From contig JAGGDC010000001.1 of assembly GCA_020809425.1 (NCBI GenBank), forward strand, positions 1,811,001 through 1,875,000: a DNA stretch of 64,000 bases, in the 5' to 3' direction. The notes under the pieces are model-generated. The model searched no databases. It was not told the DNA's origin and saw only the letters and a program-made list of their open reading frames with translations. Position 1 is the stretch's first letter. Each line of letters opens with the position of its first letter. Positions 51,114 to 57,007 of the stretch are shown one piece after another. This DNA comes from Candidatus Synoicihabitans palmerolidicus. Lineage in GTDB: Bacteria; Verrucomicrobiota; Verrucomicrobiia; Opitutales; Opitutaceae. The translations under genes were made by a program, and so were the position numbers.

Positions 51114-51372
51114 TCATGAGGACTCCACCATCCGCCATCTCCTTCCGGTCGCAAGCGTAGTCCGCTGTTTTATAACCTCCTTCCGAGGTGTGAGCCGACA
51201 ATTTATCTAGAGGGATAGTCAAAGCGATCATACTTCTACCTTAACATCTTTAGTGCCTTAGTGCCAACTCAACCGGTACCATATTATACTATTGATATTG
51301 ATAGTGTTAAAAAATCACTACCCTGTTTTTAGAAACGACCGATTCGAATAATCTATTGCATTTCCCTCTCAT

Positions 51373-51402
51373 ATCGTGCATAGATAATTATATATGCACG
51401 AT
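51373..51402. promoter_or_regulatory. Perfect hyphenated palindrome over a start codon
   Basis: Arms ATCGTGCATA (51373-51382) and TATGCACGAT (51393-51402) separated by 10 AT-rich bases. The right arm includes the first two bases of the ATG at 51401 that starts the sigma-54 activator gene, and no Shine-Dalgarno is visible. It could be a dimer operator for autoregulation or, in RNA, a hairpin hiding the start. The surrounding 51240-51400 segment is strongly AT-rich and is the likely divergent promoter region for both the activator and the sorting-signal operon. Confidence 0.6.
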
Positions 51403-52742
51403 GTTCGCGTGGTATCATCCCCTCGAATTCCAATCTGCGATCAGCGCCTTGGTTTCCTCCGTTGAGCCGTTGCTCTCAAATAATTCGGTCCTGCGCGCAA
51501 CGCCTCACCTGGACCCACTCACCGCCCGTTCTACCGACCAAACGTATTTGGTGCCCGCACTGCTTTTGGACGCCCCGCTTTGGTCTGTCCTGCGGACCAA
51601 ACTAGCCACCGCCAATCGCTACTTCATTGTGTTCGGCGAGCACCTTGACCCCGAAAAAATCGTGCCTGCCTGCCGCGATGGTGCATTCGACGTGCTGGAC
51701 CTCCACGATTCTCCTTCTCGTTGGCGCGCCTCGCTTCCTCGCGTTCCCGAAGCTCAGGCCCTCTGGTGGCAACTTTACGGCAGCGAAACCGGCGAAATCG
51801 ACCATCGTCAACTCATCGGCCGTTCACCCGCCATGAAAGCCCTGCGCCTCGCCGTGGATCGCCTCGGCCCCACCAACGCGAGCGTGCTCATCCTCGGCGA
51901 ATCGGGCACCGGCAAGGAACGCGTTGCCGAAGCCCTTCACACCGCCGGCGGGCGGGGTGAATTCGTCGCTTTCAATTGCGCCGCCCTGCCGGCCGATTTA
52001 CTCGAAGCCGAACTCTTCGGCGTCGCCAAAGGCGCCTTCACCGGTGCCCACATGGACCGTCCCGGCCTGGTCGAACAAGTCGAAGGGGGCACCTTGTTCC
52101 TCAACGAAATCGGCGAAATGGCTCCCGGCGTTCAAGCCAAACTGCTCCGCTTCCTCGAGACCCGCACCGCCCGCCGCCTCGGCTCCAACCAGTCCTACCA
52201 CGTCGACCTGCGCATTGTCGCCGCCACCAACCGCAACCTCGATCGCGCCATGAGCGACGTCCCGTCCCGTCCCGACCTCTACTACCGCCTTGCCGAAATC
52301 ACTTTGCCTCTCCCCGCGTTGCGCGAACGCACAGAGGACATTCCGCTCCTTGCCCGCCATTTCGTGGACCTCGCAGGCACTCGGTTCGGCAAATTCTTCG
52401 ACGCCGTTGAACCGGATCCCCTCGTCATATTTCAGACTCACTCGTGGCCGGGAAACATCCGCGAACTGAAGAACACACTCGATCGACTCGTCCTCATGCA
52501 CGATGGCCCCGTCCTCCGCGCCGGATGGTGTGATCCGCCTCGCCGCTACCGCCGACCGCCACATCGTCCACCGCCGCCGCGCCCGTCAGCCCGCCTTCCC
52601 CCGTGCTGCGGAGCCAAAAAGATCGCCTCAATCGCGCACGCACGCTTCTCGCTTCCGGCCACTCAAATCTCGCCGAGGTCGCTGCCGAAATTGCGTGCCC
52701 CCCTCCACCCTTTTCCGCTGGCGCCAGGCCGGCAAAATCTAG
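51401..52742 (+). pseudogene. Sigma-54-dependent activator (NtrC family), C-terminus frameshifted
   Basis: The N-terminal ~120 residues form a degenerate receiver-like domain without a clear acceptor Asp. The AAA+ domain is complete: IGRSPAMKALRLAV, Walker [29 protein letters not shown] (sigma-54 contact GAFTGA), Walker B-like [12 protein letters not shown] (usual LDEIGE, Asp to Asn), arginine-finger region DLYYRLAEITLPLPALRER, and SWPGNIRELKNTLDRLVL. After about 52505 the frame breaks at least twice; the HTH is still visible as RARTLLASGHSNLAEVAAEI and TLFRWRQAGKI. It sits divergently to the sorting-signal operon and so may have controlled exosortase substrates. Confidence 0.8.
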
Positions 52743-52805
52743 CCGCGTTCTGCGCTCCACTTCACCGTTCTTTGGCGCCACCGAAGCAGTCGCCGAATCA
52801 CCGGT

Positions 52806-53398
52806 CTAGAGCGCCCCCAACTCCGGCCAGGCGGCCAACAACGCCTCCCTGTTCACCGACCGCTCGTCAACCGACGTAAGCACCACCAGAACGGGCTCCT
52901 GGCCCGACGCGCCCAACGTCACCCGCCGCAACGTCGTGCGCCACCAGTAGGTCATCGCTGAACCCAATGCGTGCTCCCCTTCCGTAAACCAATACAACGC
53001 TTCCGCCTGCTCACCTCGTCGGGACAACGTTACCCGCGTCGCCTCACCTATCTCCACCGGCATGACGTGCTGATCCAAAACCTCCCAACCCGCGCCTCGA
53101 AAACAAAACAACGGGTCATGCACCGCATGCCGGTTTTTCGTACCGTCTATGATCGTGAGTACCACCTGCGGTCCCCGCACTTGCGCAACCCGCTTTAAGA
53201 CCGTAGCGCCCGCATAGATCTGCTGCTCGACGTCCGACACCGCGACGTCCTGCGACCTGACCATGCCCCCCCCCGCTGCGGCAACGCATCCAATCGTGAT
53301 GACGAGTTCGGTATCGGATAAAACTGCCACACCGTCCCCAACACGATTGCCAGCCCGATCGCCGCCCACATCAACGTGGTCTTCAACTTCACTGTCAC
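52806..53398 (-). pseudogene. EpsI-like exosortase-associated protein (DUF3485-like), frameshifted in a C9 run
   Basis: GTG 53398 gives TVKLKTTLMWAAIGLAIVLGTVW, a membrane anchor, then NSSSRLDALPQRGG. A 9-base poly-C run (53266-53274, poly-G on this strand) shifts the frame; the protein continues GMVRSQDVAVSDVEQQIYAGATV, VVLTIIDGTKNRHAVHDPLFCFRGAGWEVLDQ and EALYWFTEGEHALGSAMTYWW. The HDPLFCFRGAGW box matches the HxPxxCxxxxGW-like region of EpsI proteins, partners of exosortases. Its start overlaps the previous gene's stop. Ends at TAG 52806. Confidence 0.7.
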
Positions 53399-53859
53399 CG
53401 CGCCCCCTCCTCATCCGTTCTGGTTCCTGGTCCCGGCCACCCCACCACCCCCACGCCGCTCACGATGAGTCGCAGGGGCAAATCTCCCCCGGGAAACCCC
53501 GCCTTCGCACTGACCCAACCGAGTGCGGGAACCCACGCCAAGCCCGCCACCGCCACCGCGATACGCGGCCACCACCCGGGCACCCACGCCGCCACCGCCG
53601 CCAGATGACTGGCCACGTTCAAGTGACCGACAAATCCGACCAACTCGACCCCCAGGGACACTGCCAACACCTTCGCCACCGGCATCGCACCGTGTCGCGG
53701 AATCGCCGCCCCGGCCAACCTCAGCCAGATCAACGCCACCACCCAACCCCACCGGTCATACGGCGCATTCCTCCACGCCCACAGGACCTCCCCACTCAAC
53801 ACCACCGTTACCCCCACCAGCAAAACTCCAGCTATTCGTAATTGAGTTCCACTCGCCAT
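53395..53859 (-). CDS. Multi-pass membrane protein of the exosortase locus, unknown function
   Basis: 154 residues from ATG 53859 (overlapping the stop of the exosortase tail, TGATG). About four hydrophobic segments: IAGVLLVGVTVVLSGEVLWAW, WVVALIWLRLAGAAIP, AAVAAWVPGWWPRIAVAVAGL and LIVSGVGVVGW. No catalytic motif recognised. Gene order exosortase end, this protein, EpsI-like protein suggests a role in anchoring or export of sorted proteins. Uninterrupted, although both neighbours are broken. Confidence 0.55.
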   Translation of the reverse strand: MASGTQLRIAGVLLVGVTVVLSGEVLWAWRNAPYDRWGWVVALIWLRLAGAAIPRHGAMPVAKVLAVSLGVELVGFVGHLNVASHLAAVAAWVPGWWPRIAVAVAGLAWVPALGWVSAKAGFPGGDLPLRLIVSGVGVVGWPGPGTRTDEEGAR

Positions 53860-54011
53860 CAGGTCGCTCCTTTCGGCTTCATCCCGATTTTTCCCAGAAC
53901 TCGAAAAACCGCCATGCAGAGGCCAAACATCACCATCAATACCGCCCATCCGCCCCAGTCGTGAAACCAGCCCATCGCCGCCTCCGGGCCGTAACTCAAT
54001 CCTGCCACCCC
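53859..54011 (-). pseudogene. C-terminal fragment of a second exosortase
   Basis: The last ~50 codons of a membrane protein: GVAGLSYGPEAAMGWFHDWGGWAVLMVMFGLCMAVFRVLGKIGM. The FHDWGGW element with its His followed by a helix is like the C-terminal part of exosortases. Upstream it is cut by IS630 copy 2 (54014). The DNA on the far side of the IS (55203 onward) belongs to an unrelated TonB-like gene on the opposite strand, so the rest of this gene has been deleted. Confidence 0.6.
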
Positions 54012-54013
54012 TA

Positions 54014-55200
54014 GTGTTCCGGGAGTTAATTCACTATCCGAATGAAGGGATGCGGCGGTGCAGGCGCGTTGGATTTTCTCCAGGATGGCGGCGCCTTCGG
54101 CCTTCCAAGTGTAGCGTAGCGGGTGGGTTCGAGGTCGCGTGCGGCCATGTAGGTTTCGATGGCGTTGGTGAGGTCTCGAACGCTGGTGAAGCTGCCATCG
54201 CGGATACAATCGACGGTGAGGTCGCGGAAGAAGCGCTCCACTAGATTCAACCAGGAAGAGGATGTTGGAGTGCAGTGCGATGCGCTCGACGCCATGGGCT
54301 TTGGCATGGCGCTGATTGCGCCACTTTATCCAGCTCTTCACTTTGGCGTGCTTGTGGGTGGCGTCGTTGTCGATGATCAGATGCAGGACCAAGCCGTCGG
54401 GTGCCTGCGCATCGATGTGCTGGAGGAAACCGAGCCATTCGCGGTGGGTATGCCGAGAGGCCGGTGCGTCGCATGATTTTGCCGGCCAGATAGCCGAGGG
54501 CGGCGAATAGCGTGACCGTGCCGTGGCGGGTGTAATCGTGGGTGGCGGTTTTGATGTGCCCGATACCCAAGGCAGGCCCGGCTGGGTGCGCTCAAGCGCC
54601 TGGCACTGGCTTTTCTCGTCGCAACACAGCACCAAGGCCCGATCGGGCGGATTCAGATACAAGCCGATGACATCCCAAAACTTGGCCTCGAAGTTCCGGT
54701 CACGCGACAACTTGAACGTTCGTCGCAAATGGGGCTTCAGGTCGTTGGCCCGCCACAGACGCTGCACGGTGTGGGCCGACACCCCCTTTGGCCTTGGCCA
54801 TCGCCCGTGAGGACCAGCGGGTGCGCCCGGCCGGGGGTTGCGTGACTTCAGTGACGATCTGAGCGCGAATCGCCACAATCCACACTCGGCTTCCGGCCCG
54901 AACGTCTCGCTTCGGCCCATCCAGCCAACCCTGCCTCACGAAATCGCTTTTCCCACTTCGCCACCACCGGACGATTCACTCCGATCTGAGCAGCCACCGG
55001 CTCCTGGCTTTTCCCTTCGGCCCGCAACAACACGATGCGCGCCCGCCTGACCTCCCGTTGCGGCGTGGTCGGGCGTTTGATCATCTGTTCAAGTTCTTGA
55101 TGCTGCGCGGCATCAATGATTAGCGGATTAACAGGGCGGGCCATGCACCCATCCTGCACTACTATGTTTGTTTCGTATAGCTAATTAACTCCCACTACAC
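54014..55200 (-). mobile_element. IS630-family element, copy 2, with intact ends
   Basis: 1187 bp; terminal repeats GTGTTCCGGGAGTTAATTC at the left and the reverse of GTGTAGTGGGAGTTAATTAGC at the right; TA on both sides (54012-54013, 55201-55202). The transposase on the minus strand starts at 55159 (MQDGCMARPVNPLIID) and has the same DDE segments as copy 1 (LVLCCDEKSQCQALE, LIIDNDATHKHAKV, SSSWLNLVERFF). Frameshifts near 54880, at the A3G5 run near 54785 (A2G5 in copy 1), near 54580 and near 54120. It keeps TGG where copy 1 has TGA (28631-28633). Confidence 0.88.
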
Positions 55201-55202
55201 TA

Positions 55203-55434
55203 GTATCCGGCCAAACTGAAACAGGAGCAAGTAGGCGGCCTCGTGCTTCTCGACGTCGTGATCGACGATAAAGGACAGGTCGGCAGCGCCGATGTCGTAA
55301 AATCGACGGCGGACGATTTTGTGGCACCAACCCTCGCTGCTGTAAAAAAATGGCGCTTCAAGCCCGCCAAAATCGCAGGCGAAAACGTCTGGGTTCGCCT
55401 TCGCCTGCCGGTCAAGTTCTCCCCCGCGAGCTAA
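55203..55434 (+). pseudogene. TonB C-terminal domain remnant
   Basis: Frame reading YPAKLKQEQVGGLVLLDVVIDDKGQVGSADVVKSTADDFVAPTL (in two halves) and VKKWRFKPAKIAGENVWVRLRLPVKF is the periplasmic C-terminal domain of a TonB/energy-transducer protein. The N-terminal membrane helix and Pro-rich linker are gone, cut at IS630 copy 2. Followed by an intrinsic terminator at 55468-55499. It may be the former partner of TonB-dependent receptors such as the one at the window start. Confidence 0.75.
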
Positions 55435-55510: not shown

Positions 55511-56581
55511 CTAGACCATGCGGGTCGGCTTATTGCTCGAGGGCGAACTCACATCCAACCGAAGCGACTCGAGATTCTCCCGTACCAACTCCCCCATCGA
55601 CTGACACTTTAGATACGCATCCCGGCGGAAAAACTCTGCCAGCCCCGCCCGCAGATCATGAAGATGTTCGGGTGGCGCAATCCGGTCCGCCGCCATCGCC
55701 GCGAGCAATTCACCGAGCATGGTCTCCGTGATCGCCGCCCGGTGCAGGATCGCCACCCGCTCTTCGCGCTGATACTGCTGGGCCGTCTCCACCCGCAGAT
55801 GCTTCATGCAAAACATGGCGAATGACCAATTCTCCTTAAAAAACTGCGGCCGATAAAAATTGAGGCGTCTTTCATAGCTCTGCTGGTCAAAATCCATGGC
55901 CCGGATCCTCAACTGCGCCCCTTCAAAATCCGGGGTCACCACCACAACAAAATTGTAGGCCCGCATGTCACCCAGGAGCCGCACGAAACACCGTTCGTTG
56001 AACTTCACCAACTCCTTCGCCACGCGTACGGGCTTCAAGTCCTTTCCCTCTAGCCATTTATCAATGAACACATCTCCCGGTAGCCCCGCCACATGCTCCT
56101 CCACCAACGTCGCCCCACTCGTGAAGTAGTTCATGCGATTTGGTGACAATAGATGTTCCAGCTCCAGTCCATACACCCGCGAGGCATCCCCTCTCTTAAT
56201 GTAGAAATAGTCCGCGTTGTCATTGAACGCATTCACAATCCGAATACGAAACGGCGCCGAATTCCCAAACGAACAATAGTCGATGCGATCCACATACAAA
56301 TGCTGCATCACCGACATGTCGCCATCCGTGCGCAACAACGCGTAGACGCGCTTCAGATCCTCATGCAGCGGTCCCATCTCCAGCCGGCTGTAGATCACAC
56401 AATCCCACAAAGTCGGCACCCCCTGGACATCCGGCAACGGACACGACTCCTCAAAAGTCAGCAATCGTTCGTAACTGATCGGCAACGATCGCTCCCGCCG
56501 GTTTCGGCGTAAGTAGTCACGCAACCGATCCGAAATCAAAAAGCTGGGTTTCTTAAGTTGCGGGCGCTCGTCGTCGGCCAT
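55511..56581 (-). CDS. Unknown protein with kinase-like motifs
   Basis: Intact 356-residue cytoplasmic protein from ATG 56581 (MADDERPQLKKPSFLISD). No family recognised with confidence. Residues ~120-260 show an order reminiscent of protein-kinase-like folds: NADYFYIKRGDASRVYGLELEHLL (a possible Lys-Glu pair), GDVFIDKWLEGKDL (hinge-like), RCFVRLLGDMRAYNFVVVV (compare the HxDxxxxN catalytic loop; here GDMRAYN) and LRIRAMDFDQQSYERR (compare the metal-binding DFD/DFG). The helical C-terminus is EFFRRDAYLKCQSMGELV. No signal peptide. The kinase idea is an inference from motif spacing only. Intact in a decaying region, so probably functional. Confidence 0.6.
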   Translation of the reverse strand: MADDERPQLKKPSFLISDRLRDYLRRNRRERSLPISYERLLTFEESCPLPDVQGVPTLWDCVIYSRLEMGPLHEDLKRVYALLRTDGDMSVMQHLYVDRIDYCSFGNSAPFRIRIVNAFNDNADYFYIKRGDASRVYGLELEHLLSPNRMNYFTSGATLVEEHVAGLPGDVFIDKWLEGKDLKPVRVAKELVKFNERCFVRLLGDMRAYNFVVVVTPDFEGAQLRIRAMDFDQQSYERRLNFYRPQFFKENWSFAMFCMKHLRVETAQQYQREERVAILHRAAITETMLGELLAAMAADRIAPPEHLHDLRAGLAEFFRRDAYLKCQSMGELVRENLESLRLDVSSPSSNKPTRMV

Positions 56582-56773: not shown

Positions 56774-57007
56774 ATGGTGCCCACGCACTTTTGGGTCAAC
56801 GTCTTCCTGGTCATACTCAGCGGCATCGTCGCGCTCATTCTCGTGCGCCACGCGGCCCGCATGAACCGCTACGTACTCACACTTATCATTGTGCTACTCA
56901 CGACAACCATTGGCTTTCAATGGATCTACGAGCGTAACGAGCCCCGCTTTTTCACCCCTTTAATCAACCAGATCGCTCCGCTCTTTCCCCAGAAACCCCA
57001 CTACTAG
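56774..57007 (+). CDS. Small two-helix membrane protein, unknown
   Basis: 77 residues from ATG 56774: FWVNVFLVILSGIVALILVRHAARMNRYVLTLIIVLLTTTIGFQWIYE, two hydrophobic helices joined by a basic turn, then FFTPLINQIAPLFPQ. No family recognised. It precedes gnd by 190 bp in the same direction. Confidence 0.55.
   Translation: MVPTHFWVNVFLVILSGIVALILVRHAARMNRYVLTLIIVLLTTTIGFQWIYERNEPRFFTPLINQIAPLFPQKPHY

Follow-up and report, generated by a model that had tools for sequence, protein, structure and literature searches.

The minus-strand open reading frame at positions 55511-56581 of the window, a stretch of 64,000 nucleotides from the genome of Candidatus Synoicihabitans palmerolidicus, raises the question of what kind of protein it encodes. 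The initial annotation had described an intact 356-codon gene in which GDMRAYNF, followed about 20 residues later by AMDFDQQ, mimics the catalytic loop and metal site of protein-kinase-like folds, with no known family recognised. The frame, treated here as an orphan kinase-like CDS of 356 aa (stop codon included), starts with ATG and contains no internal stop, as expected of an intact gene. Both motifs were located, GDMRAYNF starting at residue 204 and AMDFDQQ at residue 228, with 25 residues from D205 to D230 and 20 from N210 to D230, which agrees with the interval described. Since D205, R207, N210, D230, F231, D232 and Q233 are invariant in all 135 loci compared, a chance origin of the two motifs is rejected.

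We assessed the integrity of the gene across these 135 loci. The frames, as delimited, lacked internal stops in 133 of them, the exceptions being L052 and L116; the profile-matched part of the genome of L116 (G001) is stop-free, and some database matches in the phylum-wide single-sequence and profile searches extend across a stop close to an end. Comparison with seven relatives gave dN/dS values of 0.044-0.135, with dS close to saturation. On sequence evidence, the gene is clearly under purifying selection and is no relic.

We then compared the protein with known sequence families. The window protein had no Pfam match at E ≤ 10, and no kinase-domain family was matched when 50 members were searched singly at E ≤ 1. 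These 50 members matched 20 families, each hit by one to five members, with a best E-value of 0.024; PIP49_N (FAM69 N-terminal), a region of a kinase-like protein, was hit by one of the 50 at E 0.068. APH (PF01636), HipA_C (PF07804), CotH (PF08757) and PF00454 gave no hmmscan match for the window protein (E ≤ 10) or the 50 members (E ≤ 1), and neither search revealed a further known Pfam domain. Elsewhere, PF00454 had one sub-threshold match in 41 genomes, and PF07804 had two matches at other positions of the window's genome. The NCBIfam hit to AurF (E 0.089) was dismissed as weak and irrelevant, and the best PHROGs hit, phrog_2505 (E 0.22), was dismissed as weak; PADLOC returned no match. Searches of PDB sequences with the single sequence or with a profile of 50 diverse members yielded no significant match, and the weak hits to 2k7b (E 1.1, single sequence), 8yva (E 0.2, profile) and 8x1i (E 2, profile) were dismissed. 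Among the titles and abstract openings listed in a literature search, none describes this family. Thus, the statement that no known family is recognised holds for Pfam, NCBIfam, PADLOC, PHROGs and PDB sequences.

The initial annotation had also suggested a profile-profile search against HipA, CotH and aminoglycoside-kinase families. The family of the window protein was aligned by hhalign with 40 templates, namely HipA, APH, CotH and 37 decoy profiles. The decoys were clustered ORFs from the gene neighbourhood, probably including some antisense frames. The HipA, APH and CotH templates were rough, each taken from the mid-locus open frame of same-phylum loci (30, 20 and 21 loci, respectively, before length filtering), and at least one row of the APH alignment was apparently misread. 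With these rough templates, HipA (PF07804) scored 17.8 over 12 columns and ranked 9 of 40, below eight decoys; APH (PF01636) scored 16.3 and ranked 15 of 40, below 13 decoys; and CotH (PF08757) scored 14.9 and ranked 24 of 40. Because these scores did not rise above the decoys, they do not establish membership in the HipA, APH or CotH families, and we claim no kinship with them, all three scores lying within the range of the 37 decoys. The suggested check therefore gave no profile-profile signal above decoys and no Pfam match. As the templates were roughly extracted, the profile-profile negative carries little weight, and the Pfam scans are the firmer test.

The fold was predicted with AlphaFold2 without templates. 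Model 1, built from 75 family sequences, reached pLDDT 84 and pTM 0.85; model 2, built with a different first sequence, reached pLDDT 76 and pTM 0.73 and showed the same order of elements. Both alignments were shallow (75 and 68 sequences, at 62-76% identity to the first), and pLDDT over five runs ranged from 84 to 67 for model 1 and from 76 to 48 for model 2. In model 1, an N-terminal extension (residues 1-90; 56312..56581, minus strand), conserved from about residue 11 and carrying helices 18-26, 37-40 and 66-85, lies ahead of a predicted N-lobe (residues 95-162; 56096..56299, minus strand). The N-lobe consists of strands 95-102, 111-117 and 123-130, the alphaC helix 133-145 and strands 152-155 and 158-162 (hinge). 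The predicted C-lobe (residues 163-345; 55547..56095, minus strand) follows with helices 169-176 and 184-205, a loop, strands 210-218 and 221-229 and further helices; it is poorly modelled at 239-243 and 246-249, and much of the stretch past DFD has pLDDT below 50. The bilobal arrangement of the PKL superfamily, with an N-lobe sheet plus alphaC, a hinge and a helical C-lobe, was thus present in the predicted models.

Fold searches pointed in the same direction. All 50 Foldseek matches listed for model 1 against the PDB were kinases or kinase domains by title; the best was VPS34 (E 3.9e-4), and three of the matches listed had E below 0.001. The E-values were marginal and the TM-scores low, at most 0.36 to the query among the matches listed. 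VIA-align placed PI4KIIIbeta first for model 1 (Z 10.7, 4.3 A over 254 residues, 9% identity), and its best 50 matches were PI3K, PI4K or PIKK entries according to their titles and residue ranges (Z 9.4-10.7), so that within these best 50 rows the closest folds to the predicted model were PI3/PI4 kinases. For model 2, the top match was p110gamma (Z 8.8, 5.0 A over 233 residues); since this Z is near the level of models without a clear match, model 1 and the residue evidence bear the weight of the argument. SelO, FAM20, CotH, HipA and APH were not among the PDB fold matches listed (best 50 per search). Against viral models, the top match was a Ser/Thr kinase (E 4.7e-4), the sole one below 0.001, and the top matches were mostly kinases, together with uncharacterised proteins and polyproteins.

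These figures bear on the possibility that modelling and short motifs have produced a spurious kinase likeness and that the protein in fact folds differently. Marginal Foldseek E-values, low TM-scores, a shallow alignment and the lack of profile-profile support speak for such an artefact, but the topology agrees between two template-free models, the PDB fold matches listed are kinases, and the invariant residues sit where a kinase would have them; we regard an artefact as very unlikely. The initial annotation had proposed structure prediction with a fold search, a fold unrelated to kinases counting against it; a kinase fold was predicted in both models.

To locate a candidate active site, we examined the invariant positions on the predicted fold. 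K129, E140, E142, G204, D205, M206, R207 and N210, as well as D230, F231, D232 and Q233, are identical in all 135 loci, the window included. The candidate nucleotide-binding loop FGNS (residues 105-108; 56258..56269, minus strand) lies between beta1 and beta2, with N107 conserved in 135/135 and G106 in 132/135. K129 (56195..56197, minus strand), at the end of strand 123-130, is the candidate ATP-phosphate lysine of beta3, and E140 and E142 (56156..56164, minus strand) in helix 133-145 are candidate ion-pair glutamates, one or the other of which would pair with it. The pairing of a beta3 lysine with an alphaC glutamate, typical of the PKL superfamily, is thereby found in predicted placement. 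GDMRAYN (residues 204-210; 55952..55972, minus strand), at the end of helix 184-205, is the candidate catalytic loop, with D205 as putative base and N210 as putative metal ligand. DFDQ (residues 230-233; 55883..55894, minus strand), directly after strand 221-229, is the candidate metal site equivalent to DFG. In the predicted fold, D205, N210 and D230 reproduce the PKL pattern of a catalytic Asp and a metal Asn five residues apart after alphaE, with a metal Asp following the next two strands. According to the available portion of the source, D166 and N171 of PKA are five residues apart, equal to D205 and N210 here, and N171 and D184 are 13 apart, compared with 20 between N210 and D230 (PMC9758233).

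With D205 and N210 after the long helix and D230 and D232 after the hairpin, the two motifs first noticed correspond to the catalytic loop and metal site of the predicted fold. K129 and the alphaC glutamates, which had gone unmentioned, would complete a candidate catalytic set. Overall, the kinase-like reading is supported by the two predicted models and the invariant catalytic-type residues.

The same residues bear on whether the protein could be a pseudoenzyme, that is, a nucleotide sensor or scaffold that keeps the kinase fold and has lost phosphotransfer. The motifs are atypical, with Arg at D+2, where PI3 kinases have His, and DFD in place of DFG; no conserved partner gene was found among the neighbours examined, and identity to the nearest folds is about 8-12% in the best 50 rows. 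However, the expected ATP- and metal-binding positions are invariant in 135/135, and pseudokinases commonly lose at least one such position, which counts against a pseudoenzyme. We consider this alternative unlikely.

We propose that the window protein is most likely an active ATP-dependent cytoplasmic transferase, and we infer its location, ATP binding, catalysis and residue roles alike. In this mechanism, the interlobe cleft would receive ATP-Mg, with FGNS as a cover over the nucleotide. K129, supported by E140 or E142 from alphaC, would hold the alpha and beta phosphates; N210 and D230, perhaps with D232, would hold the metal; D205 would serve as catalytic base; and the gamma-phosphate would be handed to a hydroxyl acceptor. 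Metal sites of aminoglycoside and choline kinases resemble the IDFD motif. This likeness, together with PI3/PI4 lipid kinases being the nearest folds, slightly favours a small molecule or lipid head group as the acceptor rather than a protein.

A kinase fold may also carry out another transfer, such as AMPylation, as in SelO, or glutamylation, since neither the fold nor the catalytic residues by themselves reveal which group is moved. New kinase folds that lack a sequence signal continue to turn up, SelO being among those with unusual chemistry, and since SelO AMPylates with a kinase fold, it counts in favour of this alternative. SelO has kinase-like residues, as stated in the available portion of the source (PMC3281104). 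Against it, Pfam gave no SelO-like signal for the window protein or the 50 members, and we judge a different transfer quite unlikely. Phosphotransfer remains the preferred reading: it is fairly likely that the product is a cytoplasmic, stand-alone enzyme belonging to the PKL superfamily, with a kinase mechanism and a sequence family of its own found largely in the class Opitutia.

To define the distribution of the family, we searched 387 sampled Verrucomicrobiota genomes. The single-sequence search identified 82 carriers, each with one match, at 45-85% identity to the window protein outside the window's own genome and with E-values from 3e-245 (self) to 7e-91; the copy number in the window's own genome is 1. 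A profile search of the phylum at E ≤ 0.01 returned the identical 82 genomes and no distant relatives among the 387. The gene was found in 35 of the 37 genomes of the window's family and 21 of the 26 other genomes of its order, and is therefore not a rare accessory gene. A further 22 carriers belong to other families of the class Opitutia (where the list of non-carriers is incomplete), and the four carriers outside the class all belong to one family, f40, of which at least one genome (G086) was not among the carriers. The edge of the distribution is sharp, each genome giving a strong match or none. Two genomes of the window's family that are 97-100% complete, G330 and G283, have no copy, and two genus-mates of G330 have the gene; these absences reflect either loss or an assembly gap. 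Small carrier genomes of 1.3-1.7 Mb were also found (G146, G204, G001 and G108), the smallest, G146, being 1.3 Mb and 98% complete.

Phyla other than Verrucomicrobiota were covered by a peptide-pattern scan only. Among 84,980 species in a genome collection, the pattern hit 300 stretches, 283 of which encoded relatives; 80 of these loci were kept. The 80 of 283 showed best-segment identities of 64-77%, and their record titles were all Verrucomicrobiota taxa, including three MAG contigs titled Akkermansia muciniphila. Loci of the family also come from the Opitutaceae Geminisphaera and Ereboglobus (L029 and L030). No match was found in 72,556 plasmids or 50,697 phage records, and none of the 108 viral-contig stretches that matched the pattern encoded a relative. 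A mobile or defence gene was rejected, as there was no plasmid, phage or viral-contig relative and no PADLOC family. In a maximum-likelihood tree of 50 members, most families formed one group each, and family f1 required two changes. Under midpoint rooting, which draws the root without fixing it, f40 fell among Opitutia branches, a placement that would imply transfer. These searches suggest a sequence family largely confined to the class Opitutia and strongly conserved there, and inheritance of the gene appears to be mostly vertical.

The surroundings of the gene were examined for partners. The initial annotation had called the neighbourhood decaying, which was borne out downstream, where transposase-like frames and a TonB_C fragment lie, but not upstream, which looks intact. 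Upstream are a divergent 77-aa ORF and then 6-phosphogluconate dehydrogenase (gnd). Divergent gnd was the commonest real neighbour, matched upstream in 35 of 134 relatives (34 within about 2.5 kb and L035 at 4.4 kb; many loci are too short). The 77-aa hydrophobic ORF (56774-57007, plus strand) had no Pfam match and recurred divergently upstream in 26 of 134 loci at 22-68% identity, many loci again being too short. In one genome subset, all eight gnd loci and all six 77-aa ORF loci belonged to the window's family.

On the downstream side, an apparently truncated 63-aa TonB C-terminal domain fragment (PF03544, E 6e-11) was found at 55243-55434 (plus strand); the homologues in L083 and L078 have relatives of it on their downstream side, at 60% and 32% identity, respectively. 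Overlapping frames at 53859-55159 (minus strand) are transposase-like by eye, with HTH_23 at 54848-55159 and no Pfam match for the frame at 53859-54920 (minus strand), and look like a frameshifted insertion-sequence remnant. A sigma-54 activator (E 1.7e-57) at 51356-52879 (plus strand) becomes proline/arginine-rich and seemingly out of frame past about residue 390. Within the kinase-like gene, the antisense ORF at 56153-56512 (plus strand) belongs to a cluster of antisense ORFs of at least 90 aa that overlaps or adjoins the gene in 118 of 135 loci, probably as a by-product of high G+C content and a strongly conserved protein.

For the partner search, we used 20 co-directional ORFs from the immediate neighbours in 54 loci and clustered ORFs of at least 90 aa. 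An operon or partner gene was rejected, as the 20 ORFs hit unrelated families (NUDIX, LGT, queuosine synthesis, OTCase, DNA polymerases and others), weak ones or none. No conserved operon was seen, because neighbours vary by lineage outside the window's family. Seven loci were inspected by eye for gene fusion. Some homologues are preceded by long open frames (L104, 517 codons; L118, 193; L133, 179), but these look like spurious translations rather than domains; no fused domain was recognised in the seven loci, and gene fusion was rejected.

Taken together, strong conservation in the class and a predicted kinase fold with the expected catalytic residues suggest that the window protein is probably an undescribed kinase-like enzyme. 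The best reading is a new sequence family within a known superfamily, kinase-like by predicted fold and active site. The lack of a conserved operon, mostly vertical inheritance and retention in genomes of 1.3-1.7 Mb suggest that the role is housekeeping and not accessory. We tentatively extend this to a hitherto unrecognised family of competent kinases in the Opitutia core, derived from a PI3/PI4-kinase-like ancestor and acting on an essential small-molecule, lipid or protein substrate in a class-particular pathway, a possibility we rate somewhat short of even. Given its wide presence, the lack of a conserved operon and the unchanged presumed active site, the gene offers a tractable target for the class-specific needs of Opitutia, and it is a candidate for a bacterial lineage close to the PI3/PI4-kinase fold.

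Among known systems, the nearest solved folds in the matches listed are the PI3/PI4 kinases VPS34, p110gamma and PI4KIIIbeta (PF00454). PI3 kinases, like the window protein, have a GD-x-x-x-x-N loop and, after it, a metal motif of the IDF type. In contrast to them, the window protein is bacterial and 356 aa long, shares 8-12% identity in the best 50 VIA-align rows, has no PF00454 match, and carries GDMR-x-x-N with DFD, departing from the DRH-x-x-N and DFG of PI3 kinases, in which the DRH histidine occupies the D+2 position of R207. APH and choline kinase-like proteins are small bacterial kinase-like proteins with D-x4-N and an IDFD-like metal motif, as in the window protein; HipA toxin kinases are bacterial and kinase-like with PI3K-like features; and CotH spore-coat kinases combine a kinase-like fold with atypical motifs. 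In the available portion of a Legionella survey, novel kinase-like families with scant sequence signal were recognised through structure models and conserved equivalents of N171 and D184 and, mostly, of D166 (PMC9758233). Set side by side by description, those families come from a survey of an effector-rich pathogen genus, whereas the gene described here is a widespread single-copy gene of Opitutia (PMC9758233, same portion).
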